Virus record (IMG/VR): IMGVR_UViG_3300031958_000085
Location: 1 to 28,299 of that record
Length of the DNA: 28,299 nucleotides
DNA from: a virus
Reading direction: 5' to 3' (one strand)
Part shown: piece by piece, positions 2,885-27,471 of the stretch
Layout of the letters: each line of letters opens with the position of its first letter
Numbering within the stretch: the stretch's first letter is position 1
Program-made: the position numbers and the translations under genes
The notes under the pieces: generated by a model
The model's database searches: none
The model's input: the letters and a program-made list of their open reading frames with translations, nothing else
What the model was told of the DNA's origin: nothing

Positions 2885-2885
2885 T

Positions 2886-3689
2886 ATGATTACACAATTG
2901 GGATATAAAGTTATATTGTATAAAAATCTCAGTATCGATAAACCTATAAAAACTAACTTACTTGTAAAAGAAAACATAAAAACATTATTGGACATACACA
3001 AAAACTTTAGTTATTACGATTTAGTAAATGTGTATGGGATTTTGAATGAGAGATGGTCGCCTCAAGTTAGGAATCAGTTTTCGGAAAGATACTTAGACTT
3101 AGGTATAATAGAGCAAAAAAACGGCAAAATTAGACTCACACATCATGCACTCAAGATTGGTATAGAATACCTCATAATATACGGAATAGTAAGAACCTGT
3201 ACTGATACCACACTAAATACCTATATAGAAAATCAAATAAGCAAGAGCACTGGGAAAGGAGTTAGTCTAAATGGAACAGCTATGATGCAGTTTTTGCATC
3301 TCATGGGTCTGACATACGATGAGTCGTATGAATACGATTTTTATGTAGATTTGATAGCTAACATTGTTAATTCGCTGCATACTCCATATCGTCCATTAGC
3401 GAGTAAAATGAGATTAGGTAATAATCAGTTGGTAGAGGCGTTGTACTTGTATAACCGTCTGCGATTTTGGGTATCGAGTAAAGATATAAAGACCGATCTT
3501 GTCACACAGCTGTTATTAAACGGTATGCTAGACTATAAGCATAGTGATGGATTAGACTTATTTAGACTCAATAGTTCAGGACAAGCATTTGTCACACACA
3601 AATACGCTCTTAAAATCCATAACATAGTTTATGGAAGACAAAAGGTAGAGGTACCCACATTCTTTGTTTATGACTATGTACTACTTTAG
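2886..3689 (+). CDS. Hypothetical protein, 267 aa, possible winged-helix N-terminal domain
   Basis: The ATG follows the SNF2 stop by 1 bp, so the two are very probably co-transcribed. I do not recognise the full-length family. Residues about 40-80 look like a winged helix: two short helices, then a segment with SERYLDLGIIEQKNGKIRLT, which has the shape of a recognition helix followed by a beta wing. This pattern is common in phage and archaeal DNA-binding proteins. The rest is mostly helical with no catalytic motif I can see. Direct coupling to a SNF2 translocase makes a DNA-binding partner role reasonable, but that is inference. Confidence 0.75.
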   Translation: MITQLGYKVILYKNLSIDKPIKTNLLVKENIKTLLDIHKNFSYYDLVNVYGILNERWSPQVRNQFSERYLDLGIIEQKNGKIRLTHHALKIGIEYLIIYGIVRTCTDTTLNTYIENQISKSTGKGVSLNGTAMMQFLHLMGLTYDESYEYDFYVDLIANIVNSLHTPYRPLASKMRLGNNQLVEALYLYNRLRFWVSSKDIKTDLVTQLLLNGMLDYKHSDGLDLFRLNSSGQAFVTHKYALKIHNIVYGRQKVEVPTFFVYDYVLL

Positions 3690-3698
3690 AGAATATTA

Positions 3699-3706
3699 GT
3701 ATATTT
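3699..3706 (+). promoter_or_regulatory. GTATATTT box, candidate phage promoter
   Basis: This octamer ends 5 nt before the ATG at 3712, in the 22-bp gap after the 267-aa gene. It would allow the 3712-5102 pair to be expressed apart from the SNF2 genes. An overlapping out-of-frame ATG at 3707 does not open a useful frame. Confidence 0.45.
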
Positions 3707-3711
3707 ATGGC

Positions 3712-4440
3712 ATGCCAGGATATCTCTTCTACTATCATAGACAGACTCCAACGATTAAACTGCCCAACTTACATGAGATTTTAAATAATTCTGGTAATCA
3801 CAGCATTATTACGTACGAACGAGTTAAGGATTTTGGTATTGTCCCGTTTTTATTTGTTGAGGGTATGCCACCTAATCCACACTATGATCTTGTATCAAAG
3901 GTCAAAGAACATCTAAAAAAACAAAATGTAGAACCAGAAAAGATAAAGGTTATAACCTACCAAAGGGATGAACTATATCAATACAGCCAGTCTCGTATCC
4001 CTTGGCATTACATAGGACCTAAACTTGTAAAACAAAAAATAAATATAGAGCAAATAAACAAGAGGGTAGATAAGATTACTTTAGACAAGGCAGAGGTGGT
4101 CTTTTTAGAAAGTAGTAAGGCGGGGAAAGAACTATTAGGGCATCTAACGGGAAAAGACGTGGACGCGGTAGAGATGTTGAAATTCTTCTTAGATAGAACG
4201 TCTCAGAAACTAAAAATGGATGTGCCAATAAAAGACTACGACTTACTTTATGATATGCTGTACGACGTATACGAATACTATATATGGTATGGTGTAAGAA
4301 GTGAAATAGATAACTTCCATACTCTTATAGAAAACTTTTATCGTTACTACTTGCTCAATAAACTGACCAAAGTTGTAGGATTATACTGGTTAGACACCTA
4401 CTACGACCCAAGCTCGTTAGTAACCCAAATCCAACTATGA
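3712..4440 (+). CDS. Hypothetical protein, 242 aa
   Basis: I do not recognise this protein. The start is the ATG at 3712, preceded by a GTATATTT box. The N-terminal third is mixed alpha/beta (MPGYLFYYHRQTPTIKLPN, then a segment with HEILNN), and the middle is Lys-rich. The last 90 residues are helical and very rich in Tyr and Asp (YDLLYDMLYDVYEYYIWYG), which suggests a packed helical bundle. There is no signal peptide. The stop overlaps the next start by ATGA, so the two genes are probably translated together and may form a complex. Confidence 0.75.
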   Translation: MPGYLFYYHRQTPTIKLPNLHEILNNSGNHSIITYERVKDFGIVPFLFVEGMPPNPHYDLVSKVKEHLKKQNVEPEKIKVITYQRDELYQYSQSRIPWHYIGPKLVKQKINIEQINKRVDKITLDKAEVVFLESSKAGKELLGHLTGKDVDAVEMLKFFLDRTSQKLKMDVPIKDYDLLYDMLYDVYEYYIWYGVRSEIDNFHTLIENFYRYYLLNKLTKVVGLYWLDTYYDPSSLVTQIQL

Positions 4441-5104: not shown

Positions 5105-6592
5105 CTATAAGCTATCAAAAAATTTTTGTTCTTCTCTAAGTATCCTATTGTATATATCACCTATTGATTTAAATTTGTTATCTATATAGTCAGTCACTAT
5201 GTTTAGTCTTCTCTGTAATCTATTAATTTTTCTAGTAATCTCGTTATTTGCGTTATTTGTATCCATATAACTTCTGTATCTATTTATAATCTCCGCATGA
5301 GTATCCAACAAAAAGCGGGCTTTGCAAAAGTTCCACACCATTTGTAAGGGGTTTTCATAATCTCTATAATTTGAACGGTCAACTATTCTCTTCATATCTC
5401 TGATATAGCTAATACCTAATTTTAAGATTTGGAAGAAAGGTTCTTTTCTTATCTCTTCTGTGAAACGTTTTATGACTTTTTTATAGAATAAGCTTTCTTC
5501 ATTGTTTTCTATATTACTCAGTCTTCTTAGAGCCTGATTTATAGTTTCGCTGTCGTGTTTGCGATTTTGTACTTCCATAGCTAGGTATAGTAAAAGTATA
5601 TAGAATGCTGTTGGAACGTATAGTACGGCGTACCAGCCTTCTTTGAAGACCTGTTGTGTTTGGGCGTCGATTTGTAGTTTCAGCGCTTTGCATGCGCATT
5701 CTGGGTGCAAGGTATATCCTTCGTTAGTGTAACCACTCCCTCCTACTACACCTGCAAAACCACCATATAACGAATGCCGCCATAAATGAAAAGAATAAAC
5801 CGAGTATCTGTAATCGTCTATTCGTGGGCCGTAGTAGCTACGAATAGTATCGTAAGTTACACCAGAATGTGAAACCGTCGGATAATAACTAATAGATATA
5901 ATGATGTAGTCAGCTATATCGAGGTCAAAGACACTTTTATATATACCACGGTCGTAATGGAAATATGATGCTATGCCGAACTGAGTGCCAGAATGTAATC
6001 TATTAACGAATAATTCTCTTTCTCTCGCCATATTTAATATAAGCTGATTACGATGTGGGACATTACCCTGATCTGCAAAAAGGTGCTGAGCACCACCTTC
6101 ATTGCGCAAAATGAGTAAAACAGAGTATAAGAGATGTGGCTTTGAAAACACATAATCTATAATATTGCGGATGTTGGTTAATTCTGTAATACTACTTGCT
6201 GGAGGATTAGGTGGTTCGAGACCCTCCATCAGTATGTTCGTAATAGAGCTTTGAGGGTCTGGGCGCGCAACAAGCGCATTATTGCGTATAAGCTCATGTG
6301 TAACAGCTCCATAACCGTTACCATACTTAGTTGTACTATTACTTAATGTTGTCAAGTCAGGTCTAACAAAAAAATCAGCTCTCGGCGCTAAAAATATTTC
6401 ATCAACACCTTTGATTAAGAAGTTAGAAGCAGAAGAATCCCTAAGGCATAATTTGGCATCTCTGTGCTGTAATAGATCACCATAAGTTATGTTAAAAACT
6501 TTACCACTACATGCATTATTCGTAGCAAGATACACTGTATAATTTTTGACCGAAGAATTCCCATTACTAATAGCAATATTTTGTAATATCAT
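5105..6592 (-). CDS. Hypothetical protein, 495 aa, downstream of large terminase
   Basis: The ATG at 6592-6590 lies 5 bp after the terminase stop, so it belongs to the tail-tube/terminase operon. Genes directly after TerL often encode the portal, and about 500 aa is a typical portal length, but I see no portal signature and do not call it one. The N-terminal 300 residues are beta-rich and Asn/Ser/Tyr-rich. A Gly-rich stretch (GGFAGVVGGSGYTNEGY) precedes a short CAC pair. A hydrophobic segment follows at about 330-350 (AVLYVPTAFYILLLYLAMEV). The last 130 residues are charged helices, probably coiled coil (ITRKINRLQRRLNIVTDYI). A virion protein is the best guess from context. Confidence 0.75.
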   Translation of the reverse strand: MILQNIAISNGNSSVKNYTVYLATNNACSGKVFNITYGDLLQHRDAKLCLRDSSASNFLIKGVDEIFLAPRADFFVRPDLTTLSNSTTKYGNGYGAVTHELIRNNALVARPDPQSSITNILMEGLEPPNPPASSITELTNIRNIIDYVFSKPHLLYSVLLILRNEGGAQHLFADQGNVPHRNQLILNMARERELFVNRLHSGTQFGIASYFHYDRGIYKSVFDLDIADYIIISISYYPTVSHSGVTYDTIRSYYGPRIDDYRYSVYSFHLWRHSLYGGFAGVVGGSGYTNEGYTLHPECACKALKLQIDAQTQQVFKEGWYAVLYVPTAFYILLLYLAMEVQNRKHDSETINQALRRLSNIENNEESLFYKKVIKRFTEEIRKEPFFQILKLGISYIRDMKRIVDRSNYRDYENPLQMVWNFCKARFLLDTHAEIINRYRSYMDTNNANNEITRKINRLQRRLNIVTDYIDNKFKSIGDIYNRILREEQKFFDSL

Positions 6593-9102: not shown

Positions 9103-9110
9103 AAATATAC
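9103..9110 (-). promoter_or_regulatory. GTATATTT box upstream of tail tube gene
   Basis: Read on the minus strand, GTATATTT is followed by ATTT and then the ATG at 9098, a 4-nt gap. It shares the 33-bp divergent region 9099-9131 with the promoter-like box of the plus-strand gene. A late structural gene behind this box is the main reason to suspect a late promoter. Confidence 0.5.
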
Positions 9111-9131: not shown

Positions 9132-9473
9132 ATGCAGGCATGTTTCGACAAATTCACAATTATGAAGGAGATTATAGACTTGTATAATCTTTGTGTTAAT
9201 TTGTTTGATTATTTAGAGCATGGTAAGGGACGATATTACATGATGTCGTTTGCCGGTCACTTAGACGATGTCGTACGCCTATACTACAAGTGGCCGGTAA
9301 AAAACGTTACTCAACTATGGGTCAAAAGTGCCATAAATATGCATAGTGACGATACAATCAACAAATTCGGCATTCTATTAAATGAAGCAATAAACGGCGA
9401 CTGTACTAAAAGCGACCCGATTCTACAAAACATACTATGTCAAATCAGCGGACTGCTCAACTCCTGCAGTTGA
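9132..9473 (+). CDS. Hypothetical protein, 113 aa, 3' end derived from an IS605-type relic
   Basis: I prefer the ATG at 9132 (MQACFDKFTIMKE); a TTG at 9117 would overlap the promoter box, and an ATG at 9162 is also possible. The protein is small and helical with no recognised domain; YMMSFAGHLDDVVRLYYKWP suggests an amphipathic helix. The last codons (GLLNSCS and the TGA) lie inside the repeated element at 9451-9600, so insertion of that element probably replaced the original C-terminus. It is the only plus-strand gene between two minus-strand blocks, which suggests independent acquisition. Confidence 0.6.
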   Translation: MQACFDKFTIMKEIIDLYNLCVNLFDYLEHGKGRYYMMSFAGHLDDVVRLYYKWPVKNVTQLWVKSAINMHSDDTINKFGILLNEAINGDCTKSDPILQNILCQISGLLNSCS

Positions 9474-9600
9474 GCTTCCTGCTTCGTCGCAGGATGGCTT
9501 TTTAGGTAGCTCGCAGGGGCTACGTTCATCCACCAGAGCCTGCTCCACAGGCTTCACTTCGGGTCGTCCTAACCCTAGAGGCTTGGTTCTCGCCTACACA
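9451..9600 (-). mobile_element. Solo IS200/IS605-type relic, copy A: tnpB 3' tail plus right end / omega-RNA-like region
   Basis: This GC-rich, hairpin-rich stretch is repeated at 26796-26930. Read on the minus strand it has the look of a tnpB 3' end: PEVKPVEQALVDERSP in one frame, and TKQEAQLQEL just downstream in another frame. I recall PEVxPVE and KQEA as common TnpB C-terminal patterns. Then comes a perfect palindrome at 9457-9475 (CTCAACT and AGTTGAG arms around CCTGC), as expected at an IS605 right end. Further hairpins are CCTGC/GCAGG (9479-9494), GTAGC/GCTAC and AGCCTG/CAGGCT. In TnpB systems the omega RNA is transcribed from exactly this region. No TnpB body, zinc finger or left end is present here. 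Confidence 0.55.
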
Positions 9601-9669: not shown

Positions 9670-11046
9670 TCAATCGGATTGACCAAGATTTAAGCTATTT
9701 ACTATTAGTTCAACGAGCATATCAACTATTACTTCTTCTTCTTTATCTGTCCTCATGTTTTGTAACATATTGTACCTTTCTCTTTCATCTATCACATCTA
9801 CTATATAGGCTAATGCTAGCTTAAGCGTCGGAGTAGTAAGTGCTTCTAATATTTTATTTATACTCGAAATTTCTTTATTGTCCATGGGTTTTTTCTTAAT
9901 AGCCTCGTAAATGCTTTTGTTATATAAGTACCTTATATCACTATCCTTTATGCCATTGATTACCTTTTTTATCCACTGCTTATACTGTGCTTCGGAATCG
10001 ATAGACTTATACGTTCTAGTATATATATGTGTAGTTATTAGCTGTTTTTTATGTTTTATTGTATCTTTATCGTATACACCAGCTTTTATAGCTTCATCTA
10101 CATCCTTATAAGGCGTATTAAGAAGCAGGTATACGACTTTATTTTGTAGCATAAAGTACTGCGCCGCTTTCAAAGAAGCTTTATATCCAGAACGATCAGT
10201 GTCTAATACCATATTGATTACAGTGTACTTGTTTAGTTTGGATAACTTTTTAGAACTTATATTCAGACCTAATAGGGAAACCACGTTCTTAATGCCTATA
10301 CTGTAAAGTGCAATAGCATCAAAGATGCCTTCCGTTACATAAATCTCCGAATTTCGGTCATGAATATTATAGTTATAGACAACATCTATCAGAGACTTAT
10401 CAGGCTCAGCGGAATAAATATACTTGTACTCAGCATCTTCATGTATAGTTCTAAACATAAATGTTATAACCTTATGATTTTCTATTATTGGCAATACAAT
10501 GAAACTATTATTGTCTGTTTTAGGGAAACTTAGATACTTTATCCGTTTTTCACCATAAAGCGTAACAAGCTCTTGATGAACATGTTTATTCCATAAACCG
10601 ATCTTGAAATTTTTAATAATGTTATTCAGAGCCTCAGTTTCTATAAATGAGAATCTTTTCTTTAGGTATAAATATTCATCTGTATTTGCAGCATTAACTA
10701 ACTTACCAGACAGATAGTTTGCGACTTGTTTTTTAAATTGTGTACGGTCGTGCTTATATTTTTCAGTATCATCTATAGGTATGTTATATCTTTCGCTTAG
10801 AATTCTAGCTGCTTCTACGTATGGAATGTTTTCCATTAGAGCGACAAATTGGATTACATCCCCCCCATAACCACTTGAAAAGCACTTGAAGATATTCTTT
10901 TCGGGTAATACAAAAAACGAAGGTTTAGTTTCGCGTTTGAAAGGGGATAAACTGCTATATTGCTTGCCTACCTTCTTCAAAGTAATCCCATATGATCGCA
11001 CAACATCAACTATGGATACGGAAGATTTTATTTTATAAAAATCCAT
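9670..11046 (-). CDS. dnaG: DnaG-type DNA primase with degenerate zinc finger
   Basis: The 458-aa protein makes RNA primers for replication. The N-terminal zinc-binding domain is recognisable (SPFKRETKPSFFV, then KCFSSGYGGD), but three of the four CHCC ligands are changed: Ser34 for Cys, Lys37 for His and Ser58 for Cys, with only Cys55 kept. The TOPRIM catalytic core is intact, with Glu239 in VTEGIFDA and Asp282/Asp284 in LDTDRSG. The last 110 residues are Lys-rich and helical and may contact a helicase. The ATG lies 5 bp after the stop of the giant gene, so it is last in the spanin-giant-primase run. It is shorter than bacterial DnaG (about 580 aa), as is usual for phage primases. Confidence 0.92.
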   Translation of the reverse strand: MDFYKIKSSVSIVDVVRSYGITLKKVGKQYSSLSPFKRETKPSFFVLPEKNIFKCFSSGYGGDVIQFVALMENIPYVEAARILSERYNIPIDDTEKYKHDRTQFKKQVANYLSGKLVNAANTDEYLYLKKRFSFIETEALNNIIKNFKIGLWNKHVHQELVTLYGEKRIKYLSFPKTDNNSFIVLPIIENHKVITFMFRTIHEDAEYKYIYSAEPDKSLIDVVYNYNIHDRNSEIYVTEGIFDAIALYSIGIKNVVSLLGLNISSKKLSKLNKYTVINMVLDTDRSGYKASLKAAQYFMLQNKVVYLLLNTPYKDVDEAIKAGVYDKDTIKHKKQLITTHIYTRTYKSIDSEAQYKQWIKKVINGIKDSDIRYLYNKSIYEAIKKKPMDNKEISSINKILEALTTPTLKLALAYIVDVIDERERYNMLQNMRTDKEEEVIVDMLVELIVNSLNLGQSD

Positions 11047-11051
11047 TTATA

Positions 11052-14000
11052 TTATATGTCTACGTTTCCAAAATAATCTGGATTGCGTGCTACGGCCTTG
11101 ATATAGCTGGACGCGATGTTAGAGAAGATACCTCCGTTACTAAATACGTATTCTGCTTGGTGGTGATAGTCTATGTCATGTTTATTCCTTACCATAGCGG
11201 GGAATGCATGCTGAGCAAAACAGCTATTTTGGAGCAGACTTTCATAACTATATGTATGAGGCAATTGTTCGGATGTGTCAGTCGAAAATGACAGATACTT
11301 CTGGTACGGTCTAATGGTAATGTCTTGGTACTGATCCCTATTTATTGTGCCATCAGCGCTGCGCAAAGCTGTATAGAGTCTAAGACCTATCTCTATAGTA
11401 TAAGACATCGGCGGCGCGCTATACGTGACTTCCGGCACAGGATTGCCAAGGAACTTGTAAATATTATCAGACTTGCCGAATATGATGAAGTTAGGATGCG
11501 GCACTGGATGTCCCTCGTACAAGCTATTATCGTTTTCTCTATACAGGAACATGTTACCTAAGAAGTAATCTACTATTGTAGCCTCGTAATGTAGCCCATG
11601 AGATGTAATCATGTGGTTATTACTTACGGAGACTCCGTATTCGTGGGTTAGTTCATCACCGGTTCTTGTGAGAGGTGCCGTGTTCAAACCGCATTGAATA
11701 CTCCAAAGGCGCGTCATAGATGGCTCCGCCTCTACAAGATGATAGAAGTTAGCAACGGAAGCCCCAGTCCCCTGCTTAACGATTGCTTGATCGTATCCAC
11801 CATACGGTCTCGTCATCACGTTGGAACCAGCGCGATAGCCAGATGGTATTTCAACACCTTCCCAATTAGCACCATCACCAAAACTAAAACCACTGTTCAT
11901 ATAGTAAAACTCCACAGACGTTGGCGGATTACCACTTAAGTGGTCAAAACTATATAACTCGTTAATCCAGTCTCTTGTTTCGCCTCCTCCTAAATAACGA
12001 GCTGGGTCATTCATATATATAGCGTCTGCAAGCACAAAAAGTGGCACATCAGGTGTTGTTTCTTTAGACACAGGACTAGTAACGACTCGATTCAGTTGGG
12101 CAGCTGGATAAAGACGAGGTCTAATGAAAACACGCCCAGTGTCTAAGTAAAGCGGATCGTACATGTAGTGCGAGAGTGTATTGGCTCGCAAAACAGGTTG
12201 CTTGATAGTCAAACGATCGTTAATAGTCCGAAAATCGTATGGGGTTCTGAACATAGATGCATATGCGCGTGCGTTACTATAACCAAAAACCCAAGCGAAC
12301 CAGAAGTAATCTATCCGATGCGTAAAGTTCCATATATTATATCGTCTTGTGTTGTAAGTCATATTGAATGCTCTGGGTAGTAAACCAGACGATGTTACAC
12401 CTAATATATTATATGTTACATTATTACTTCGCCTTAACTGACCAGATGCATCGGGCATGCCAGCTACATCTACGTAACTCATCTGACTAAATGCATCTAC
12501 TGCTATGCTGAAAAAGGCACTGGCATTCCCACTCCACATGGCGTGACGTTCTACAAATAGTGGTGGCACACTCAAAGACAACCAATTACCCAAAGCTTCA
12601 CCAAGACTATTACCTGTAATAATGATACTCATTTCTTTCGGAAAGCGGAATAGCATATTAACATCATCGCCTAAAAGTTTAAGTCCGCTCCTGTAATAAA
12701 GTTGCCCCCCTATACGAAACTTATTTATGGGCCAGTAAGCCGGGAAAACGAAAATAGACCGTGGCACAGGATTACGAATCAATAAGTCAGCGTAATTCAT
12801 ATTATACTCGAACCTGCTAAAACCATTAAATTCCAAATAGAATAACTCGTCATTAGGAGTATTGTACTTAAATCTAAAACTAGCATTAGGTGATGTATTG
12901 TAAAATAAATCAAAAGTAAAACTCTTTTTGTACATATCGTTAAGCGGCGTTTGCATTCTATTGCTAACTATAATATTTTCAAATTCTATGTTGTAAGCAC
13001 TATTATTAAATATTGAGTTAGCGATTTGTGTATCTGAATGTTCTACATTGTGATGTGTGTTTCTGTCAAAAATTGCACTTTCCCCTTTATGTTGAAATAC
13101 GGGATGCGGTTCTATATCGCTTGCAAATATAGCAGTTCTATATAGCGATAAACGGCGTGTAGATAAACTAGTATTGAAAGTGTAAAATACAGGTACATAA
13201 GTTGCTTCTTCTATTAGTATTCTGGGTTGTACTCTAACATCGTTTACTTCTGGAGGCGGAACGTTATGCCTAACGATATACTCAGAACTGTTAAGCAAGA
13301 AGTATAAGCCGCCGAGCCACTCGTAACGGCCAGCAGGCATCGTATTACTAACTGCTTCAATAGCATAGAAAGGAGCATCACGCACAATTCCAATATAAAG
13401 ATTATAAGCGTGATCAATTATATTATACGTAGTTGTGAATATCAAATCTCTTTTAGTCCAGTACAGACTTTGAAAATTTGTAATAGTGCCAGATAGTAAA
13501 CCGAGAATCGTAGAAAGTGTATTCAAACCACTGAATAAGCTACCCGGATTATCATATTTATTGTAATTAAGTAATGTTTCAGCATTTAATGTATATAGGT
13601 CGTAATAGTTTTGTTCTATCAGAGCCTTTACAGTATAGTAATGATGTGGCGAAATTAGAAACTTTTTGATATTTTTATTTTCTTCTCTCATGTTCACCTC
13701 CGTATGCTGCATGTGCGGCCAATAGTTATTGTACGTCACAGTATCAGTCAAGTCATGCAATAGATCCATATCAAACCTCATTTCATGAACGACTTTGTTA
13801 TTATAAGCCGACGAGCCCAGAACGTGAGACAGGTATAACATAGTATGAGTAGGGTTACCATACATGCTTAGGAAAAAAGTTTGAGGGTTATGCAGCTGCA
13901 TGATATATGTGTCATATAACGCAGTGGAATAATGGTGATAATAACGCTTTTCTAAGGTTTGTGTAAGCATCGGCAAAGTATTGGTGTACATGACCATGTG

Positions 14001-17000
14001 GTTTAGCCATCGGCGAGGAACAGGCAAATGCTGCACGCCTGATGCCACATCTCTAAACCAGGGGTTGAGTTTCCATTGGTGATAAGACCATTTATCGTAG
14101 CCTAAGCCACTAGCCTCAACAACAGCACCCATCGGGAAAGAAAATGACATGTCTAAGTAGCAGACAGTTACACGTTGTTGAGCCGTACCTATATCACTAC
14201 AATCAATATATGGGTTACTACTACTTGTAATAACCAGATCGCCTACCATTCCCGCATCTATAGCAGCATTTGGCCATGCTAAGCTATTAATAAAATTAGG
14301 GTTACGGTCAGGATAAGCGGAGCTGTTGACTAAGTAATCTAGAGGCAAGTGTCTTGGGATATCATTTCCTAGGGCCCCGTATGGAACATAAGTAAGGTAG
14401 TCACTCAAGTATAAAGATGCACAGCTTAGGGATTCTTTCTGATATATAGATACAGGGTCTATAATTAGCGGTTTAGGATATATAGTTAATACATCTATCA
14501 AATACGGATTTCTAGCCCAGAATATAACCCTTTCTTCTCGTCTGATATTGGTTATGGTATGGAATAAAGATTTAGGCGACTGAAAATATTTTGTGGTTTG
14601 TAAGTTGCTATTGATGTTCCGCATTACATTATTTACATTTATCTGAACGTCACGGCTACTACTTAATGGCATACTACCCATAGACGAAAAGTTAGTTGTC
14701 TCGCGTGCTGGTAAGTGATACTCACCGAACTGACGATCAGTATATTGTGAGTAGTTTCTTGCGCCCACCGCACCCGCGGGGCCTACACTATACGCATGCG
14801 TAGCATTATATCCTAAAGGCATCACACCAACGCTCACCCTAAGACCTTTAACCATCGGCATCCTAATACGATACCGATGCCGTTTGGCTCTCTTGTAAAA
14901 CTGAGACAAAACTTTATAATTGTTATATATAAAGTAAATATTCGCCTTATTAGCTAATTCAGACCTAATATAATAAGGATTGCCCACAAAAAATAATGCT
15001 TTTGCTGAGACACTTTGGTTAAGCATAAGATTGAATTCTGTATGGGTATTAGGTATATAAATGCCTTCGTTAGGTAATGGAACATACGAACGGTAGTGAT
15101 AAGATTGCAGAAGTAAGTCTTCGTAAATAAATCTATTAGTCATATAAAAATGTAAGCGAATATCAGTGCCCAATTGTGTAAGTACGTTATTAGAAAGACT
15201 ACCGAAAGTAGAACTCAGTGACAATTTGATTATATCCCGTTCTAAAATCATTTTAGTGCTAGCATAGGAACCACTTATATTGTAATAATCAATAGTATAA
15301 GTATTATTAGAACTATTTAGTTTATTAATATCGCTAAGTATATTAGGTGAGTATTTAAGTATATTCAGTAAATCATTTGTAACTTTTGTATTTTGGTCTT
15401 TAGGATGTCCTAATACGCCTATTCTGTCTAAGCGGTAACTTGTATGTTCCTCCTCGTGAGCATGGAAATAAAACATCATCACATCGTATGCCATTGTATC
15501 GGTTCTATAGTATTCGTAAAGTTTTTGTAATACCAGATCGGACGTTTTAAGGGTTGGGCTGGTCCCAGCCAAGAAGTTCATTGCACCTGCCATAGATAAA
15601 GCAGAACGATTTCTCTCCAAAAAAGACATAAACTGAGTATCTTCCCTTACAATAGTGGCATCATAATAGGCATAAAATTTGTGCATATCATTATTAGGAT
15701 CAAAAATATTAGGGTTTTGAGGGATATAGGCTGAATCGTTGTAATTGACGTCATCTTTTTGCAAGTAGGACAACATGGCCGATTGACTTATAGCTATATT
15801 ACCACTTATTATATTTGATGGTGTGTGGTTAAAGTCATATTGACCGTCAATATATATACTATATATTGGCATACCTCTGTTCTTGTAACGAAAATTTTGA
15901 AGAGGAAGCCTATACAATGTTTTAGAATATCTTATTATATCAGGAGAAAAATTTTCGCTTATAGAATTTTTGTTATATTCTACCATTAATTCGTTGAAGG
16001 GATAAAATACCTTTACGTAAGGTATTCCATAAGGGGCAAGCGGATAGAACTTCTGTGCCCCTACATATACTAAATTAAGCTTTGCTGTAGACATATAGAA
16101 TGGTTCATACTGATATTCTACGTTAGGATTGTCTAAGTTAGGATTAGAAACTTGTTCGTTAGTCAAAAATATAGGATATGATACAAGATAATACAACTCA
16201 GGTGGTATAAAATGTTTAAGCGCCAACTCCTGGTTAAAATGTACTCTCCTAAACAATCTATCAGTTGTACTATCGTTATCATTATAATAGTAGTACAATG
16301 GTATGTTAGACAACATATATTGTTGTAAGTAGAAAGAACCGCCTAATGGCACACCATAAGGTGGTGTATCAAAGCATAAATAATTAGTAGTATATAAAAA
16401 CTGACTTGATGCCCAACTTCCATAGTTTGTCCTTCTTAGATTAATACCTTGTTTACGTATGCTATTCCCAGGAATCTTGTAGCTATTATTAATACCGTGA
16501 ATAGCGAATAAGGGGACAGGTGGATGATAGTTACTAATAAGCATATTATATATAAAACCCTGAGGTATCTCAATCGCTGCCGAAGTCCTCACAGTCATCG
16601 TATCAAACACGCCTTTATTGGCTACATTACTAACAACTCTATCACTAACAACTGATAATCGTGTTGGGTTAGTACTGTTAGGGAACTCCCTTGTGTATTT
16701 GTTAAGTATCAATGAATTATCAATATCGCCATAAGCAATTTCCCATCCATAGGGTCTTTCATAAGCAATAAAATCTTTATAAGGATTCACCACACGGCCA
16801 TAACTATAACCGTACTCGGAGTTAACGCTGAATTTAATTTGAGTCAAAGTAGGTCTAACTTCATCTGGTCTTATAAAATTATTGGGGTTGAACCAAAACA
16901 TCATCATTGGCGATACAATATGTTGACTATTAGAGTATCGCATCCAATAGCCATAACCTGTAAATGGCGAGAAGGCAGCTCGTTGTGCATTTAAATGCAT

Positions 17001-20000
17001 GAGATTCTCAGCATAACGGCCAATATAGGGCCAATACCAAGCTTTAAGATTGTAGTTAAAAAATGTAGGGTTTCTGTAATAACATTCAGCTTGCACATTA
17101 GCACCTATCAAATCGTAGGGCCAAGCGAAAAGATTGCCTATACGATAAAAGACATCGTAATTATCATTATCAAAAGGCTTTGGTGGCACAACGTAAACTA
17201 ATCGCTTCCTCCCAGTTGCTACACTAGACCAAAGCTCGCCTACAGAAGTAACAAGTGGATCATTATTATATTCTACTGTCTCGTAGTTTGTACTATTAGT
17301 GCCAAACTGGGATATTAGGAAGTTTTGTATATTGGATGCAGGTGTTATTACGTTGTAATAGAAATATAAATCATTACTCTCGTAAAATCTTCCTAAACTT
17401 GAGATATTAGAAATCCTACTCCACTCAGGCACATCACCTAAGCTATAATCATAAGTTATAGTATAAAATCCCTTATCGTACACATTATCAGCGTCATTAG
17501 GATGTAATGTAGATGTTGGATATATCCTATATCTTGGCAATTCATCTTTCACAAAAACCATCTTAGTAACTACGGGTAATCTGAAGCTAAACAGACGCGT
17601 AACTATGTCTTTAGCAGGAAATAAAAACTTCTGATTTTCATTTTGTACACTTATATCTTCAACTCTAAATCTATAAAGTGAATTACGTATTTCGTTAGGT
17701 GTTGTACTTGGGTTATATTCAGTGCCATAATACGAAGATGGTAGATATAAGTTGTTAGGCGTATAGTCGTCTGAGTAGTACACAGTCTTAGGAGTACCAC
17801 CGAAGTAGTTAGTATATATAGTGAAGTCTAAAAATGGGGCAAAGGCGTTTAGTGATAAAGCAGATATTACGAAACTGTGAAGTCTTATATAATTATCTAA
17901 CCTAATATCATCTTGCGCGAAAGTTACAGAAGACTTATTAGTTATTAGGTATCTGCCGTATCTATTGGAACTTGTCAGATCAACCTTGTAAAAATACACA
18001 TTGCTAAAACCTTCATATATCGTATTTGTGTTCTGTAGTAATCCCTGTCTAGGTTCAGCATTCAATCCTGCCGACCACTTGTTCCACGCATAGTCTGTAA
18101 TGAAACCAACATACTCCATATGCCAAAAACCCGAAAAAGGATTAGGCCCAACATTAATAATATTCTCGATATTTGTATTAGCATTTAGATTATCCCTAAT
18201 AACACGTATTAAATTGTCATTTAGAACATCTGCATCGGCTCGTTCATTAGTTAAGTTATCCATAAATATGAACAGAATGTTTTTAGGATTGTAAGGATTA
18301 TCATATACTATCATAGGCTCGTCAAATCTTTCAATCTCATGAATCATCACGTTGGCTAAACCTTTATTGCCATAAATACTGAGACCCTCAGCAGTGCTAA
18401 CATAACTTGTATTAGTATCACCTCTACCGTAACGTAACGCGTCACTAAATTGGCTATATTCAAGTGTCTGAGCAGGCAAGTCTATCTCAAAGATAAGCCT
18501 TTGAAGATATCGCGAGAACTCATTCCTAAAAACTAATCTTGGTAAATTATAAACAACATTAGCACCATTCAGGTTATTAAACCTATTTGATATTAAACTT
18601 ATATGTTCAGATTTTTGAACATTTTGTATGGGGTTAGAAATATCCATTCTATCATAAGAAATGTAGTTTATATTGTCCATAATTGTTATGTAGTCTCTTT
18701 GCCTTTTTAGCATGTTTACATCGTCTATTATGCCATAAGATATCGGATGTTCTGGTACGATGTTTATCATGCCTTTATATCTATTGACTTCAAAATTCTT
18801 TCCAGCGGCTTTAGTGAAAACGTCTTCTGTCTTAAACTTTACGTAAAGAGCCTCGGTCCATCCAAAGACTGTAGTTTCGTAACCGTAATCATCGGGCACT
18901 ATAATCTCAATGTCCTGTTCATCTTTATCATATGGATAAGTTGTTCTATCGCAGAAATTCAATTCGTTGTTTTTTATACGATGAACATCACCCAAGCAAT
19001 TGATAACACTAGCTTCGTTAAGAATATAGTAGGCACTACCGACGTTAATACCATCTTCAATAGGGTGTAAGTAGTCTACTGCAATATAGTTTTCGCGGAT
19101 AGATGAATTATTGCTAACCAAATCTGCTAAGACCTTACCACCGACTATATCTTCAAATTGTTCTAAGTTACTCCGTTGCGAAGTTGTAGGTATAGTAAAT
19201 GGTTCGCTTACTAAGTCCATCAAACTATGCCTTACTCTGTTGGCACCTTTTAGTGTTCTGGGTACTATAGGTTCTATAAACTGAGTTTTTGTGCGTATAT
19301 AAACTTTATTATCATGATAAATAGCCACAAAATCATTATTCAGACTCTCAGCCACTACTTCTTCATTTACTTTGTAAAGTCTAATAACCATAACAAAATC
19401 TTTTGTATTTATATAATCTAAAACATGATATGGTCTGCTCCCTGAGTAAGTTTTTTCTTCGTATCGTATTATACCAGACAGGTAATAGGCTGGGTTAGGA
19501 GTTACGCGGCCAGGATAGTAATAAGCCATGATTGGTCTGGGCCACATTCTGGGGTGCGAGAATGCCCACGCTTGTGGCTGCCTTACTTCGCCCGTAGAAA
19601 AAGTCGGGAATAATAGATTATGAAAGTTCCACGGACCTATAAGCTCGTAATTCCTATATATGGCGTTGTAAAATTCATTATCAAAACTAGCATTAAAAGG
19701 TACGGGATTAGAATTATTAGGAGAATTAGAAGGCAAAACATTAGTTTCCATGAGCCTGCGAATGTAATCTCTATCTTTCTCGTGTACCATAACATAGGCT
19801 CCAAGAGGATTGTATGTAATATACATAGGAGTTAGCAAATCGGTCTGATAGTAACTGCTTTTCGTTACTATATCGTCATATATTTTATAATAAGCTATAT
19901 GTCGCCTCGCTACATCATTATTGATATTATTATTTGAGGCAAAGTCTATATTCATCCCTAACAATGGTCTAATCCGCACATTAGGGAAAAATATCCTATT

Positions 20001-23000
20001 CGTCAAAGCTATAGTACGCAATACGCTATAAGCAAGAAATCTTCTTTGTAAGTCATAACCAGAATCCGAATCATTTCTTAGAACAAATGGCGTCCACCTT
20101 AAAATTCTGTAGCCATTCATGTAATAGCTTCTAAAGTCATCAAAAGTAGACCATAGTTTTTTACCTTCATTCCAAAGAGTATTATTGTAAGTAAACATAA
20201 GATTAGTTAATCCATTCATTGTTATAACATAACCTTTTAGCTTATCATCATCACCTGTTAGATATAACAACCTATTATTTATCGCATATTTTAGGATATC
20301 ATATCTAACCTCGGAAGTTAGGCACACAGAACCTGCATCTGTGTAAAATGGGTTAAAATCAGTTCCCTCGAGGGGATCGGGACTGAGGGGACCGGCAGTC
20401 CTAACCAATATTCTGGCAAATGGAGTGCCACTAGGGTTATATGGGATTACCAAATATCTGATCGTTCTTTCAATGTAGTCGGTAAGATGAAGCCCTTCAA
20501 TGTTATTAATACGTTCTATACCTATGAAACTGCCACCAACGTCAACAAAGAAGTAGCCTAAGAAGCTGTTATAGTAGCCATAGCGTCTCAAATTAAATAT
20601 TCCGGTGGTTGAGGTGTCATTAGGATTATTTATGCGATACCCTATTGTATCTATTATGCTTTCAGGGACATCTTCCATAGGGCGTATATCTCTATAAATA
20701 TTAAAACCTTTCAGATGTGGTTTTATATCAAATCGTGGTAATGTGGTGTTTACATCTCTGTATGGATACAATGGCAAGTAAGGTGCGAAAAACTCGTACC
20801 GTGCGACCGTATAAACATCGCGCAGCGATGCACTTGTCAATCTATGGGTACTTATACTCCTAATAGGACCAGGGAGTTTAAGGTTATACATATAATCTGG
20901 CGGCACAATATATAAATAAGTAAGTTCCGTGTTTTGCGTATTCATATTGGTGTTAGGCGTGTGACTGTCTATTTGACCGTGTTGCCAATTCCCGTTCCTA
21001 TCAGTTAATACAACAAAAAACAATGGCGATAAATGATTATAAGTTAGAAGCGGTAATCTGTATGAGTTACTGTCTGTATTACCTAAAAATAATCGTATGT
21101 CGGGTATCGGATGTATATCGTTATGAAAATAAGCAAAACGGTACTCATACCCTAACCCGTATCTACTAGCTTCTGCGCCGAATTCCGGAGCATAAGAAAG
21201 CATACTATCAAAAGACTGCCAACACCAAGGTATAGTAGGGGAAGAATCAGGATAGTCGGGAACGGCTAATGTATAACTCATTAAAGCCAACGCTATTGCT
21301 CGTTGTTGGAAAAACCTTTCATTAGGATTAAAATCTATGTAAGTACCACGCATGGTGCCGCTATAAACATTCATCCGCCATAGTCTTCTAGGCGTTTCTA
21401 GAACATTTGCACCCGAGCCTACCCTTACGGGTACATTAGTAATCCCAAAGGGTTGAATAGAGGGCACAATACGGCTTAAACGCATGTCTATACTATTATC
21501 ATCTATATGCGCAATTGCGCCAGTGAACCCTAACTCATAAGCAGCACCTTGGTCTATCAACTTCCTAAAATATACATTACTCCATAACAACCCTCTAATG
21601 TTAGTAGGCGAAGTGGCAAATAAATAATTATCGCGCATTTGATTCTCATTCATAAATTGTGAATAAGTACCTGGGTAGTTAACCCAATTGCAGAAGTTAG
21701 TAAGTATAGCATTTTGCGTTCTATTATTTATAAGCTGCTTACCCGAAAATGAATTGGATACTGTATTTACCAATTGTATTGTTTCATTCATACTTTTTAC
21801 TGCTCTTACCGCAAGAAAGGCCATTTGTCTGTTGAATGGTGGGAGCATAGTATGATAATCAGAAAGTGCTGTAAAGTAAGCGTAAGTCGGTGTTATACCA
21901 GAAAAACCAGTAGATGGATTAATGTGATAATAGCTATTAGCCTGAGCATAAGCTTTTAAAACTGTATTGTTCCTACGCTCGTTTTCCTGTATACCAAAAG
22001 GTATTCTAAAATGAAAGTTGTATTGTCTAGGAGTTAAAGTATATCTACTGAATGTAGGAGGTTTCAACAATATAGCTTCCTTCCTATTCTCTACAAAACA
22101 ATACGAATCTATGAGATAAATAGGGTAAAACTCTTGGTACATCGGCATTAGGCCAGTTGGTATTGTCGTGGTTTGGTGATACATGAAGTCTTTATCGCTT
22201 ATATTCAGTTTATTTTCCATGTATGTCTTACGGCTCCTCTCGGTAAATCTTACAAAATCTTGGGAAGCATAGAAGTGCATCATTGCCGCCGAAGCATAAC
22301 CAGAAACAGTGTAATCGGAAGTGTAATACGGCGTAAAATAAGTGCCGTAGCGATACTTGGAACTAGGCAAATACTTCAATGACATGCCGTAGCTGAAAGA
22401 CCCTCCAAAACCAGCATGCTTAAACGTCAAATCGTCACCCGAGCCTGCTATCAAAAATGTATAACCCCAAAGATCGTATTCAGAGTTTAAATTAGTAGGT
22501 ATGTCAATCCAATTCGAACCACTAAGACGCATGGGATAAAAATAGCCATAAGTCTTCATGTTTTGAAAGGCATTTTCATTTACTAACGGGTCACGATAAC
22601 TATACCCATTAGTAGCGTGCTGGAAACTGAAAGCGCTGTTGTGATGATCTAAGTTGAAAGATTCGTAATAGAATACAGTTGGAACGTAAAAATACGGATA
22701 CATGTATCTTTTATAATTACCTCTTGAAATAGTTTCTGTTTTAGTAGGCATACTACTATAAAGCAAATCCATAAAAACTCTACGATAATTACCATTATTG
22801 ACCGAGCCAAATGGTATATGTTCCGCTGCTCTAAGAATTTTGACTCTTGTAACATTGTAGTCATAAAATGTTATACCATCTAAAGTACCTTCCTTAGTCA
22901 ACTTATGAAATGCAAAAGCTCTTTTGCTCGCGTCTGGAATGAAAGGTATGTTTAATACACCTGATTTAACATGTTTGGTTCTTTCATTAGATAAGTAACT

Positions 23001-23729
23001 ATTTATACACAAGTTGTCTGTGAACCAATAACTAGTAGCGCTTAGGTTATATCTATTGATCTCGTTTGTATCAAAGTAGTGGTCGGGTTCGCTGGACGAG
23101 TAATCAAAAGCGTAGTACTCGTATTGGTTTGTTAGATCATAGCTGTGTAAGAAAGCATCAAGATTCCTACCAGGCCCAACATCATAAGTGTCTACTACCA
23201 ATTTTTGACGCCATATAGAAAATTCGTAAGTTTTATAGTCTTCCTTTGCTTGCTCAAAAATATAATTCCTCTTAAATCTATTAGAATACTTCCCTTTTAT
23301 TACCAAAAACGCATTATTTAGTTGTTCCGTAACGAGTTTGTCAGAATTGATATACCTACTCAAGTCAATACAAAGGTACTTACCATCAGACAACGACCTA
23401 AGTTGATCTATGGTTGGATTTCTAAATGTTACAAAATGACTCCTTTTTAATACCCTGTCTCTCTTTCTATTGATGTAATCATTGACGAGAGCCTTTACTT
23501 TACCAACTAACTCTACTATGTTAGCGTCAAACCGATCTGAAAACTCGTTACTTGCGTTTATACCAGTACCATCATACTTACGGTTTTTAAGTCTGTTCCA
23601 TAACAACAATATCTGTCTTGTGGACACAAATGAGACAGGTGCTAAAAGGAATACATCTTGCGGTTCTATGCAAAAAAACAAAAGCGGAAGTAATGTGAGG
23701 ATCACTACCGATTCAAGTATTTTTCTCAT
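11052..23729 (-). CDS. Giant 4225-aa Tyr/Asn-rich protein of unknown function
   Basis: One uninterrupted frame of 12,678 bp begins at an ATG that overlaps the spanin stop by ATGA. The N-terminus (MRKILESVVILTLLPLLFFC) is a hydrophobic segment after two basic residues, consistent with a signal peptide or membrane anchor; LFFC is not a standard lipobox. The rest is soluble in character, visibly rich in Tyr, Asn, Phe, Pro and Arg, poor in Lys-rich coils, and without long hydrophobic spans or obvious tandem repeats. I find no polymerase DxDGD motif, so I do not call it a crAss-type virion RNA polymerase. A chance-level HEEEH lies at 2758-2762. The length, composition and beta-strand-like texture suit a huge virion or surface protein, but placement between spanin and primase gives no firm clue. 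Confidence 0.9.
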   Translation of the reverse strand: MRKILESVVILTLLPLLFFCIEPQDVFLLAPVSFVSTRQILLLWNRLKNRKYDGTGINASNEFSDRFDANIVELVGKVKALVNDYINRKRDRVLKRSHFVTFRNPTIDQLRSLSDGKYLCIDLSRYINSDKLVTEQLNNAFLVIKGKYSNRFKRNYIFEQAKEDYKTYEFSIWRQKLVVDTYDVGPGRNLDAFLHSYDLTNQYEYYAFDYSSSEPDHYFDTNEINRYNLSATSYWFTDNLCINSYLSNERTKHVKSGVLNIPFIPDASKRAFAFHKLTKEGTLDGITFYDYNVTRVKILRAAEHIPFGSVNNGNYRRVFMDLLYSSMPTKTETISRGNYKRYMYPYFYVPTVFYYESFNLDHHNSAFSFQHATNGYSYRDPLVNENAFQNMKTYGYFYPMRLSGSNWIDIPTNLNSEYDLWGYTFLIAGSGDDLTFKHAGFGGSFSYGMSLKYLPSSKYRYGTYFTPYYTSDYTVSGYASAAMMHFYASQDFVRFTERSRKTYMENKLNISDKDFMYHQTTTIPTGLMPMYQEFYPIYLIDSYCFVENRKEAILLKPPTFSRYTLTPRQYNFHFRIPFGIQENERRNNTVLKAYAQANSYYHINPSTGFSGITPTYAYFTALSDYHTMLPPFNRQMAFLAVRAVKSMNETIQLVNTVSNSFSGKQLINNRTQNAILTNFCNWVNYPGTYSQFMNENQMRDNYLFATSPTNIRGLLWSNVYFRKLIDQGAAYELGFTGAIAHIDDNSIDMRLSRIVPSIQPFGITNVPVRVGSGANVLETPRRLWRMNVYSGTMRGTYIDFNPNERFFQQRAIALALMSYTLAVPDYPDSSPTIPWCWQSFDSMLSYAPEFGAEASRYGLGYEYRFAYFHNDIHPIPDIRLFLGNTDSNSYRLPLLTYNHLSPLFFVVLTDRNGNWQHGQIDSHTPNTNMNTQNTELTYLYIVPPDYMYNLKLPGPIRSISTHRLTSASLRDVYTVARYEFFAPYLPLYPYRDVNTTLPRFDIKPHLKGFNIYRDIRPMEDVPESIIDTIGYRINNPNDTSTTGIFNLRRYGYYNSFLGYFFVDVGGSFIGIERINNIEGLHLTDYIERTIRYLVIPYNPSGTPFARILVRTAGPLSPDPLEGTDFNPFYTDAGSVCLTSEVRYDILKYAINNRLLYLTGDDDKLKGYVITMNGLTNLMFTYNNTLWNEGKKLWSTFDDFRSYYMNGYRILRWTPFVLRNDSDSGYDLQRRFLAYSVLRTIALTNRIFFPNVRIRPLLGMNIDFASNNNINNDVARRHIAYYKIYDDIVTKSSYYQTDLLTPMYITYNPLGAYVMVHEKDRDYIRRLMETNVLPSNSPNNSNPVPFNASFDNEFYNAIYRNYELIGPWNFHNLLFPTFSTGEVRQPQAWAFSHPRMWPRPIMAYYYPGRVTPNPAYYLSGIIRYEEKTYSGSRPYHVLDYINTKDFVMVIRLYKVNEEVVAESLNNDFVAIYHDNKVYIRTKTQFIEPIVPRTLKGANRVRHSLMDLVSEPFTIPTTSQRSNLEQFEDIVGGKVLADLVSNNSSIRENYIAVDYLHPIEDGINVGSAYYILNEASVINCLGDVHRIKNNELNFCDRTTYPYDKDEQDIEIIVPDDYGYETTVFGWTEALYVKFKTEDVFTKAAGKNFEVNRYKGMINIVPEHPISYGIIDDVNMLKRQRDYITIMDNINYISYDRMDISNPIQNVQKSEHISLISNRFNNLNGANVVYNLPRLVFRNEFSRYLQRLIFEIDLPAQTLEYSQFSDALRYGRGDTNTSYVSTAEGLSIYGNKGLANVMIHEIERFDEPMIVYDNPYNPKNILFIFMDNLTNERADADVLNDNLIRVIRDNLNANTNIENIINVGPNPFSGFWHMEYVGFITDYAWNKWSAGLNAEPRQGLLQNTNTIYEGFSNVYFYKVDLTSSNRYGRYLITNKSSVTFAQDDIRLDNYIRLHSFVISALSLNAFAPFLDFTIYTNYFGGTPKTVYYSDDYTPNNLYLPSSYYGTEYNPSTTPNEIRNSLYRFRVEDISVQNENQKFLFPAKDIVTRLFSFRLPVVTKMVFVKDELPRYRIYPTSTLHPNDADNVYDKGFYTITYDYSLGDVPEWSRISNISSLGRFYESNDLYFYYNVITPASNIQNFLISQFGTNSTNYETVEYNNDPLVTSVGELWSSVATGRKRLVYVVPPKPFDNDNYDVFYRIGNLFAWPYDLIGANVQAECYYRNPTFFNYNLKAWYWPYIGRYAENLMHLNAQRAAFSPFTGYGYWMRYSNSQHIVSPMMMFWFNPNNFIRPDEVRPTLTQIKFSVNSEYGYSYGRVVNPYKDFIAYERPYGWEIAYGDIDNSLILNKYTREFPNSTNPTRLSVVSDRVVSNVANKGVFDTMTVRTSAAIEIPQGFIYNMLISNYHPPVPLFAIHGINNSYKIPGNSIRKQGINLRRTNYGSWASSQFLYTTNYLCFDTPPYGVPLGGSFYLQQYMLSNIPLYYYYNDNDSTTDRLFRRVHFNQELALKHFIPPELYYLVSYPIFLTNEQVSNPNLDNPNVEYQYEPFYMSTAKLNLVYVGAQKFYPLAPYGIPYVKVFYPFNELMVEYNKNSISENFSPDIIRYSKTLYRLPLQNFRYKNRGMPIYSIYIDGQYDFNHTPSNIISGNIAISQSAMLSYLQKDDVNYNDSAYIPQNPNIFDPNNDMHKFYAYYDATIVREDTQFMSFLERNRSALSMAGAMNFLAGTSPTLKTSDLVLQKLYEYYRTDTMAYDVMMFYFHAHEEEHTSYRLDRIGVLGHPKDQNTKVTNDLLNILKYSPNILSDINKLNSSNNTYTIDYYNISGSYASTKMILERDIIKLSLSSTFGSLSNNVLTQLGTDIRLHFYMTNRFIYEDLLLQSYHYRSYVPLPNEGIYIPNTHTEFNLMLNQSVSAKALFFVGNPYYIRSELANKANIYFIYNNYKVLSQFYKRAKRHRYRIRMPMVKGLRVSVGVMPLGYNATHAYSVGPAGAVGARNYSQYTDRQFGEYHLPARETTNFSSMGSMPLSSSRDVQINVNNVMRNINSNLQTTKYFQSPKSLFHTITNIRREERVIFWARNPYLIDVLTIYPKPLIIDPVSIYQKESLSCASLYLSDYLTYVPYGALGNDIPRHLPLDYLVNSSAYPDRNPNFINSLAWPNAAIDAGMVGDLVITSSSNPYIDCSDIGTAQQRVTVCYLDMSFSFPMGAVVEASGLGYDKWSYHQWKLNPWFRDVASGVQHLPVPRRWLNHMVMYTNTLPMLTQTLEKRYYHHYSTALYDTYIMQLHNPQTFFLSMYGNPTHTMLYLSHVLGSSAYNNKVVHEMRFDMDLLHDLTDTVTYNNYWPHMQHTEVNMREENKNIKKFLISPHHYYTVKALIEQNYYDLYTLNAETLLNYNKYDNPGSLFSGLNTLSTILGLLSGTITNFQSLYWTKRDLIFTTTYNIIDHAYNLYIGIVRDAPFYAIEAVSNTMPAGRYEWLGGLYFLLNSSEYIVRHNVPPPEVNDVRVQPRILIEEATYVPVFYTFNTSLSTRRLSLYRTAIFASDIEPHPVFQHKGESAIFDRNTHHNVEHSDTQIANSIFNNSAYNIEFENIIVSNRMQTPLNDMYKKSFTFDLFYNTSPNASFRFKYNTPNDELFYLEFNGFSRFEYNMNYADLLIRNPVPRSIFVFPAYWPINKFRIGGQLYYRSGLKLLGDDVNMLFRFPKEMSIIITGNSLGEALGNWLSLSVPPLFVERHAMWSGNASAFFSIAVDAFSQMSYVDVAGMPDASGQLRRSNNVTYNILGVTSSGLLPRAFNMTYNTRRYNIWNFTHRIDYFWFAWVFGYSNARAYASMFRTPYDFRTINDRLTIKQPVLRANTLSHYMYDPLYLDTGRVFIRPRLYPAAQLNRVVTSPVSKETTPDVPLFVLADAIYMNDPARYLGGGETRDWINELYSFDHLSGNPPTSVEFYYMNSGFSFGDGANWEGVEIPSGYRAGSNVMTRPYGGYDQAIVKQGTGASVANFYHLVEAEPSMTRLWSIQCGLNTAPLTRTGDELTHEYGVSVSNNHMITSHGLHYEATIVDYFLGNMFLYRENDNSLYEGHPVPHPNFIIFGKSDNIYKFLGNPVPEVTYSAPPMSYTIEIGLRLYTALRSADGTINRDQYQDITIRPYQKYLSFSTDTSEQLPHTYSYESLLQNSCFAQHAFPAMVRNKHDIDYHHQAEYVFSNGGIFSNIASSYIKAVARNPDYFGNVDI

Positions 23730-24247
23730 AGGTTGTTTTTAATATAACTTCTAATACCTCTAACTATAGCAATTATAAGGAATAGTACGACGAATACTAT
23801 GAAAGCTATGGGAATAAATTCGTCATAAAACTTGTTTTTGTCAGAAGAATTCTTTGGTTCTGTGTATTTTGTTACATACACCACTTTTTCTCTTATTATT
23901 GTATCTGTAACGCAATCGCCTTTGAGATATACTGTATCATTCTGTCTGATGATTCTAATCTGCATTCTATCGTTTTTGATTTGTATTGTATCTGATTTTT
24001 TCAATGTATCTATACGAATTATAGTATCTAATCTTATACTATCGCGAATTATGGTTAGGGTTTCCAAACTATCGTATGGTGTTTCGGGTAGCTTATATGT
24101 ATTTACTAAGTAACTATACACAAATTCTGGGCTGGTTAGTTCAACAGCTTTGCTGATTTTTTTGACTGCTCGTTTTTCTCCACTGCAGGAAAGTAATAAG
24201 GTTGTCAATAATACGATGAGTGCGGTTTTGATTCGTGATAGCCGCAT
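23726..24247 (-). CDS. Candidate unimolecular spanin (lipoprotein with C-terminal membrane anchor)
   Basis: The product is 173 aa from the ATG at 24247. The upstream in-frame codons to 24352 would place 35 residues before the signal peptide, so I reject them. The N-terminus MRLSRIKTALIVLLTTLLLSC is a lipoprotein signal with lipobox LLSC (Cys21). The middle is a periplasmic stretch of polar beta-like repeats (IIRDSIRLDTIIRIDTLKKS). A C-terminal membrane span lies at about 144-163 (FIPIAFIVFVVLFLIIAIV) with a basic cytoplasmic tail. Outer-membrane lipid anchor plus inner-membrane span in one chain is the hallmark of u-spanins such as T1 gp11, which fuse the two membranes at the end of lysis. 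No holin or endolysin is visible in the window. It starts the operon that continues into the giant gene by ATGA overlap. Confidence 0.6.
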   Translation of the reverse strand: MRLSRIKTALIVLLTTLLLSCSGEKRAVKKISKAVELTSPEFVYSYLVNTYKLPETPYDSLETLTIIRDSIRLDTIIRIDTLKKSDTIQIKNDRMQIRIIRQNDTVYLKGDCVTDTIIREKVVYVTKYTEPKNSSDKNKFYDEFIPIAFIVFVVLFLIIAIVRGIRSYIKNNL

Positions 24248-24256
24248 AGTTAGTGT

Positions 24257-24264
24257 AAATATAC
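24257..24264 (-). promoter_or_regulatory. GTATATTT box upstream of spanin gene
   Basis: On the minus strand the octamer lies 9 nt before the ATG at 24247, in the 48-bp divergent gap between spanin and sliding clamp. It would drive the spanin, giant protein and primase genes. Another late-type gene behind this box supports the promoter idea. Confidence 0.45.
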
Positions 24265-27426: not shown

Positions 27427-27471
27427 TAACTTGCCTTGCGTGTTCGTCGTAATGCTTGGTATGACGACGCA
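27427..27471 (+). repeat. Duplicated 45-nt leader with start-codon hairpin, copy 1
   Basis: This 45-nt block is repeated at 28219-28263 with only two differences. It covers the 5' region, two possible start codons (27452 and 27461) and the first codons of the gene. CGTCGT at 27445-27450 pairs with ACGACG at 27464-27469, which puts both ATGs in or beside the 13-nt loop. Being shared by two neighbouring genes, it could be a translational control element or simply a duplicated strong start region. Confidence 0.6.

Follow-up and report, generated by a model that had tools for sequence, protein, structure and literature searches.

A giant orphan phage protein with a conserved N-terminus of membrane-targeting type, encoded next to a spanin-like lipoprotein gene

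We analyzed an entire IMG/VR virus record of 28,299 bases (hereafter, the window), a fragment of a larger phage genome, and found that the longest open frame on its minus strand encodes a genuine, single-chain and lineage-specific protein of nearly 500 kDa (our own estimate). The lack of any known relative in the databases searched, together with a conserved, membrane-seeking N-terminus, suggests that this protein acts at the host cell envelope, and we tentatively regard it as membrane-targeted and envelope-facing. Most giant phage proteins with an established role serve as tape measures, fibres or ejected polymerases. The family described here matches no such class by sequence, composition or periodicity, is clearly selected and starts with an N-terminus of membrane-targeting type; it offers a test case for why a phage would need an envelope-directed protein of this size.

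The giant gene and its homologs

The frame consists of 4225 stop-free codons in DNA of 36–37% GC, for which we estimate a chance probability below e^-200, while the plus strand over the same interval is full of stops. A scan of IMG/VR recovered full-length, intact homologs on five contigs (4176–4260 aa, 74–81% overall identity), and the C-terminus was found on three additional short contigs (L007, L020 and L031). Among six sequences, dN/dS of the gene ranged between 0.12 and 0.22. Based on these values and on the intact frame in the relatives, the giant is a gene under purifying selection and not a product of chance or assembly. A single intact 12.7-kb frame had been noticed in an earlier sequence-only reading of the window, and it is indeed intact on the minus strand and open in all five relatives. 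Coordinates of the features are collected in Table 1.

Table 1. Positions of the features discussed, numbered from the first base of the window
Feature	Positions	Strand	Remarks
Giant ORF, orphan family	11052..23729	minus	4225 aa; ATG at 23729, stop at 11052
Giant residues 7–21	23667..23711	minus	Strongly hydrophobic segment; mean KD 2.4–3.4 in six homologs
Giant residues 26–44	23598..23654	minus	Nearly invariant hydrophobic stretch FLLAPxSF...QILLLWN, the second of two; basic residues follow
Giant residues 3974–4216	11082..11810	minus	Most conserved part; about 90% identity, eight homologs
Lipoprotein/TM gene	23726..24247	minus	173 aa; LLLSC lipobox, C-terminal TM segment, u-spanin-like layout
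DnaG-type primase gene	9670..11046	minus	Third gene of the operon
495-aa gene	5105..6592	minus	The window's second fast-diverging island
GTATATTT box	24257..24264	minus	Probable promoter, 9 nt upstream of the lipoprotein start
Further GTATATTT boxes	114–121, 3699–3706, 9103–9110		Before starts
Intergenic repeat, about 96 nt	9465–9560, 26811–26905		Copies roughly 90% identical
Leader sequence, 45 nt	27427–27471, 28219–28263		Copies 96% identical

The giant protein had no match in PHROGs, Pfam, NCBIfam or PADLOC, nor among PDB sequences, profile search included. Searches by tblastn with residues 1–1666, 1667–3224 and 3225–4225 returned nothing from 50,697 phage records. Alignment-based scans for distant relatives recovered only the same phage clade from viral contigs, and neither a giant match nor a host record from bacterial and archaeal genome contigs. 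The absence of a recognisable domain, stated in the sequence-only reading, was borne out: neither profile nor sequence searches linked the protein to a known family of tail proteins, fibres or RNA polymerases. In the literature on giant hot-spring or envelope-directed phage proteins we found no counterpart. AlphaFold2 models of residues 1–1085 and 3960–4216, built from 6- and 8-sequence alignments, reached pLDDT values of 25.8 and 28.7, which makes them unusable and uninformative on the fold. An HExxH sequence at residue 2758 was discarded as a meaningful motif, as the relatives do not keep it. The chain is non-repetitive, as had been reported: self-BLAST revealed no internal repeats, and neither did profile–profile comparison of 28 overlapping segments (351 pairs; best probability 3.6%), which speaks against a repetitive tail fibre or adhesin.

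The N-terminus and the upstream lipoprotein gene

The giant begins with MRKILESVVILTLLPLLFFCIEPQ, in which basic residues are followed by a hydrophobic stretch. This arrangement, already described from the window sequence, is kept in all six homologs. Residues 1–26 average 55% identity among the six, compared with 85% for residues 27–100; as the first part diverges yet stays hydrophobic, what persists is hydrophobicity and not sequence, a pattern seen in targeting or membrane segments. Judged by these features, the N-terminus is of a conserved membrane-targeting type. A survey of N-terminal hydrophobicity covered the ORFs called in the window phage and its relatives that were 90 aa or longer. 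Apart from the giant, a single ORF, whose start is doubtful, passed the threshold. The survey overlooked the upstream lipoprotein because its called start lies too far upstream; the lipoprotein most likely starts at ATG 24247 and not at TTG 24352, giving the lipoprotein signal MRLSRIKTALIVLLTTLLLSC. None of the 19 virion proteins of Cellulophaga phage phi14:2 verified by mass spectrometry (MS) passed the same threshold, which supports the earlier remark that such an N-terminus is unexpected for a virion part.

The sequence-only reading had called the N-terminus export-like, implying a cleaved signal peptide, and this part of it was not supported. A signal peptidase I (SPase I) (-3,-1) site is neither common to the six homologs nor present in the window sequence, no lipobox is present, on which a lipoprotein was rejected as well, and Glu6 in the n-region is invariant. 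A signal anchor or a membrane hairpin is more likely on this evidence. Either topology may apply. A signal anchor would place the body of the giant outside; a hairpin, made possible by residues 26–44 and the basic residues after them, would leave it in the cytoplasm.

Directly upstream, the 173-aa lipoprotein gene shares an ATGA stop/start overlap with the giant gene in the window and in 5 of 5 relatives, so that the overlap noted earlier extends to all six. A lipobox and a C-terminal TM segment are likewise present in 6/6 of the upstream proteins, and because of this gene the host is probably Gram-negative. In the IMG/VR search the lipoprotein gene occurred only beside the giant gene, and tblastn found no match to it in named phages. 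The earlier label of spanin candidate stands in part. The protein has the u-spanin layout, sharing the N-terminal lipobox and C-terminal TM segment with unimolecular spanins of the phage T1 gp11 type. However, its periplasmic Cys112 is invariant, and a periplasmic cysteine was found in none of 58 surveyed u-spanins (PMC6139136). In addition, unlike in the T1 gp11-type setting, the gene is not beside an endolysin gene, which in relative G005 lies elsewhere on the contig.

The primase gene follows the giant gene after a gap of 5 bp (11047–11051), just as described before. In 5/5 relatives the gene order is a divergent clamp gene, the lipoprotein/TM gene, the giant gene, DnaG primase, a small ORF, a 208-aa tail-tube candidate, a 69-aa ORF, TerL and the 495-aa gene, with an additional insert after the primase in L003. 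The 208-aa protein had no family match in PHROGs or Pfam, and we call it a tail-tube candidate on our own reading of its sequence.

In the reading that we favor, although at somewhat less than even odds, the giant would be directed to the cytoplasmic membrane by its non-cleaved N-terminal hydrophobic segment, as a signal anchor or hairpin. It would then act on the host envelope, presumably in a host-interaction role, next to the co-translated, spanin-like lipoprotein/TM protein.

Composition and competing explanations

The giant body is rich in N (8.8%), Y (8.5%), F (5.8%), P (5.6%) and R (R/K 1.8), as the earlier description of a Tyr/Asn/Phe/Pro-rich chain had it, and poor in K (3.2%) and E (K+E 7.1%), with 4.8% Ala and 4.9% Gly. 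In composition it comes nearest to the sheath (distance 0.047) and to the 495-aa and 292-aa proteins of this phage, and it lies far from the phage's enzymes. The body is built like structural proteins of the same phage, a likeness that puts the giant in a class without proving its role.

It is very unlikely that the giant is ejected into the cell as a tape measure or virion RNA polymerase of the kind known from P23-45, N4 or crAss. Such proteins are of a similar order of length (5002 and 3500 aa) and can carry membrane segments (PMC10770324), and gp96 of Thermus phage P23-45, a 5002-aa fusion of tape measure and virion RNA polymerase, is like the giant a very large single chain, and carries membrane segments. 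However, gp96 combines a DFDGD motif with 12.8% Ala, 16.4% K+E and strong helical periodicity, none of which the giant has. Its K+E of 7% contrasts with 13–17% in the P23-45 tape measure, N4 virion RNA polymerase and phi14:2 gp077, and its helical periodicity per 1000 aa is 0.8 against 3.3–4.4 in these proteins. With these values, the low Ala content and no Pfam or PHROG match, a tape measure was rejected. The RNA polymerase signature DxDxD, by which the P23-45 enzyme was found (PMC10770324), is present in P23-45 gp96 and phi14:2 gp077 and has 0 occurrences in the giant; a double-psi barrel virion RNA polymerase was rejected on this count, in line with the earlier statement that no polymerase motif is present. 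For the N4/T7 type of virion RNA polymerase, a search for motifs A, B and C revealed no T7-like set; its sole match, to motif B at residue 2831, looks like chance, and there was no family match. An outer-membrane beta-barrel or SprA-like translocon is very improbable. The Tyr/Asn-rich chain, the targeting-type N-terminus and a probably Gram-negative host would suit it, but there is no beta alternation over 4225 aa (z170 -0.3, compared with 3.3 over 784 aa in LptD), Gly is lower than the 6.9–9.3% in E. coli FhuA, BamA and LptD, and Pfam gave no match to any barrel family; the barrel was rejected on beta alternation and Gly content. A search for SprA_N was uninformative, as it gave no match even in the control genomes. 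By these comparisons the giant does not look like an extended helical rod, an RNA polymerase or an outer-membrane barrel.

The main rival reading, plausible but somewhat less favored, makes the giant a virion component that touches the host from the tail periphery, the baseplate or the particle surface, with its N-terminal hydrophobic segment buried in the particle or inserted in the host membrane at infection. The sheath-like composition agrees with this, K+E and R/K being as in structural proteins and not enzymes, and virion parts account for the largest phage proteins known (P23-45 gp96, PMC10770324). Among the large proteins of other phages that we compared, the least distant in composition is phi14:2 gp082, an MS-verified structural protein of 1340 aa, which equally lacks helical periodicity; it differs in having a third of the length, no detectable sequence similarity and no hydrophobic N-terminus. 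The allelic exchange and the replacement rates described below would also suit a virion part. Against it stand the strong N-terminal hydrophobic segment, unlike 19/19 of the phi14:2 virion proteins, the operon partners, which are a lipoprotein/TM gene and a primase gene and not tail genes, and a giant allele tree that departs from that of the 495-aa gene. The envelope-facing reading has weaknesses of its own: the lack of an SPase I site or lipobox with the invariant Glu6, the possible return of the chain to the cytoplasm by segment 26–44 and the basic residues, a composition that fits a virion part equally well, and the large cost of a 12.7-kb gene for a non-virion protein. A more specific form of it, in which the giant would be a specialized machine for remodeling or guarding the infected cell's envelope, non-repetitive, membrane-anchored, of an unseen fold, made with a spanin-like lipoprotein and with alleles traded between tailed-phage lineages, we consider unlikely.

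Allelic exchange and further features of the phage

Compared with L002, L004 and L006, window DNA is about 90–97% identical over most of the backbone from helicase to TerL and the tail-tube candidate (92–97% in the TerL/tube block), in contrast to roughly 65–85% over the giant and part of the primase and 67–85% over the 495-aa gene. Between the window and L004, pS was 0.16–0.17 for TerL and the tail-tube candidate, 0.48–0.61 for the giant and 0.03 for the last part of the primase. Although the L005 backbone is distant, L005 carries the nearest allele to the window giant (pS 0.37–0.46), which indicates that the giant was exchanged between lineages by recombination. One breakpoint lies in the primase near 10,000, and the other is probably near the lipoprotein gene. 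At similar pS, the giant replaces amino acids two to three times as often as TerL, and also more often than the tail-tube candidate and the clamp. By these comparisons the giant is an exchanged, faster-evolving module, and its higher replacement would fit a part that meets the host. Allele relationships of the giant differ from those of the 495-aa gene, which itself outpaces every neighbor (40–74% identity in relatives versus 90–97% for TerL) and is a candidate host-recognition gene.

The window TerL matches phrog_2; Acinetobacter phage Ab1-TPeters is among the phages whose TerL shares about 30% identity with it. Given a tail sheath (phrog_23) in a relative, the phage probably has a contractile tail. 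Just 2 of 36 genes are preceded by a Shine-Dalgarno-like motif. Many start codons have a GTATATTT box 3–12 nt ahead of them; the box before the lipoprotein start would probably serve as promoter of the lipoprotein–giant–primase operon. Four of the seven boxes in the window stand before a gene on the right strand, although their total does not exceed chance expectation, seven being reached in 12 of 100 shuffles. Together with the near absence of Shine-Dalgarno sites, the boxes look like near-leaderless promoters. Missing Shine-Dalgarno sites and a TAnnTTTG-like box are reminiscent of Bacteroidota, but leaders in that group average 33 nt (PMC6847099), whereas the phage transcripts would be nearly leaderless.

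The 96-nt intergenic repeat had no Rfam match, and copies occur in 4/5 full-length relatives (L003–L006). Its copy nearer the start of the window folds into three hairpins (z -2.6), and the other is unremarkable (z -0.45). In L003 the repeat flanks a 327-aa inserted ORF on both sides, and in L005 it adjoins a TnpB-like ORF. The 45-nt leader has at least four further copies in a 60-kb relative, several of them ahead of ORFs. Relative G005 encodes a 906-aa ORF (L017:5440–8160) that matches peptidase M16 domains (PF05193, PF00675) above the Pfam cut-offs; to our knowledge, such domains are not expected in a phage. The same relative carries a 1518-aa ORF (L018:769–5325) resembling a restriction-type nuclease-helicase, among paralogous ORFs of 668–686 aa.
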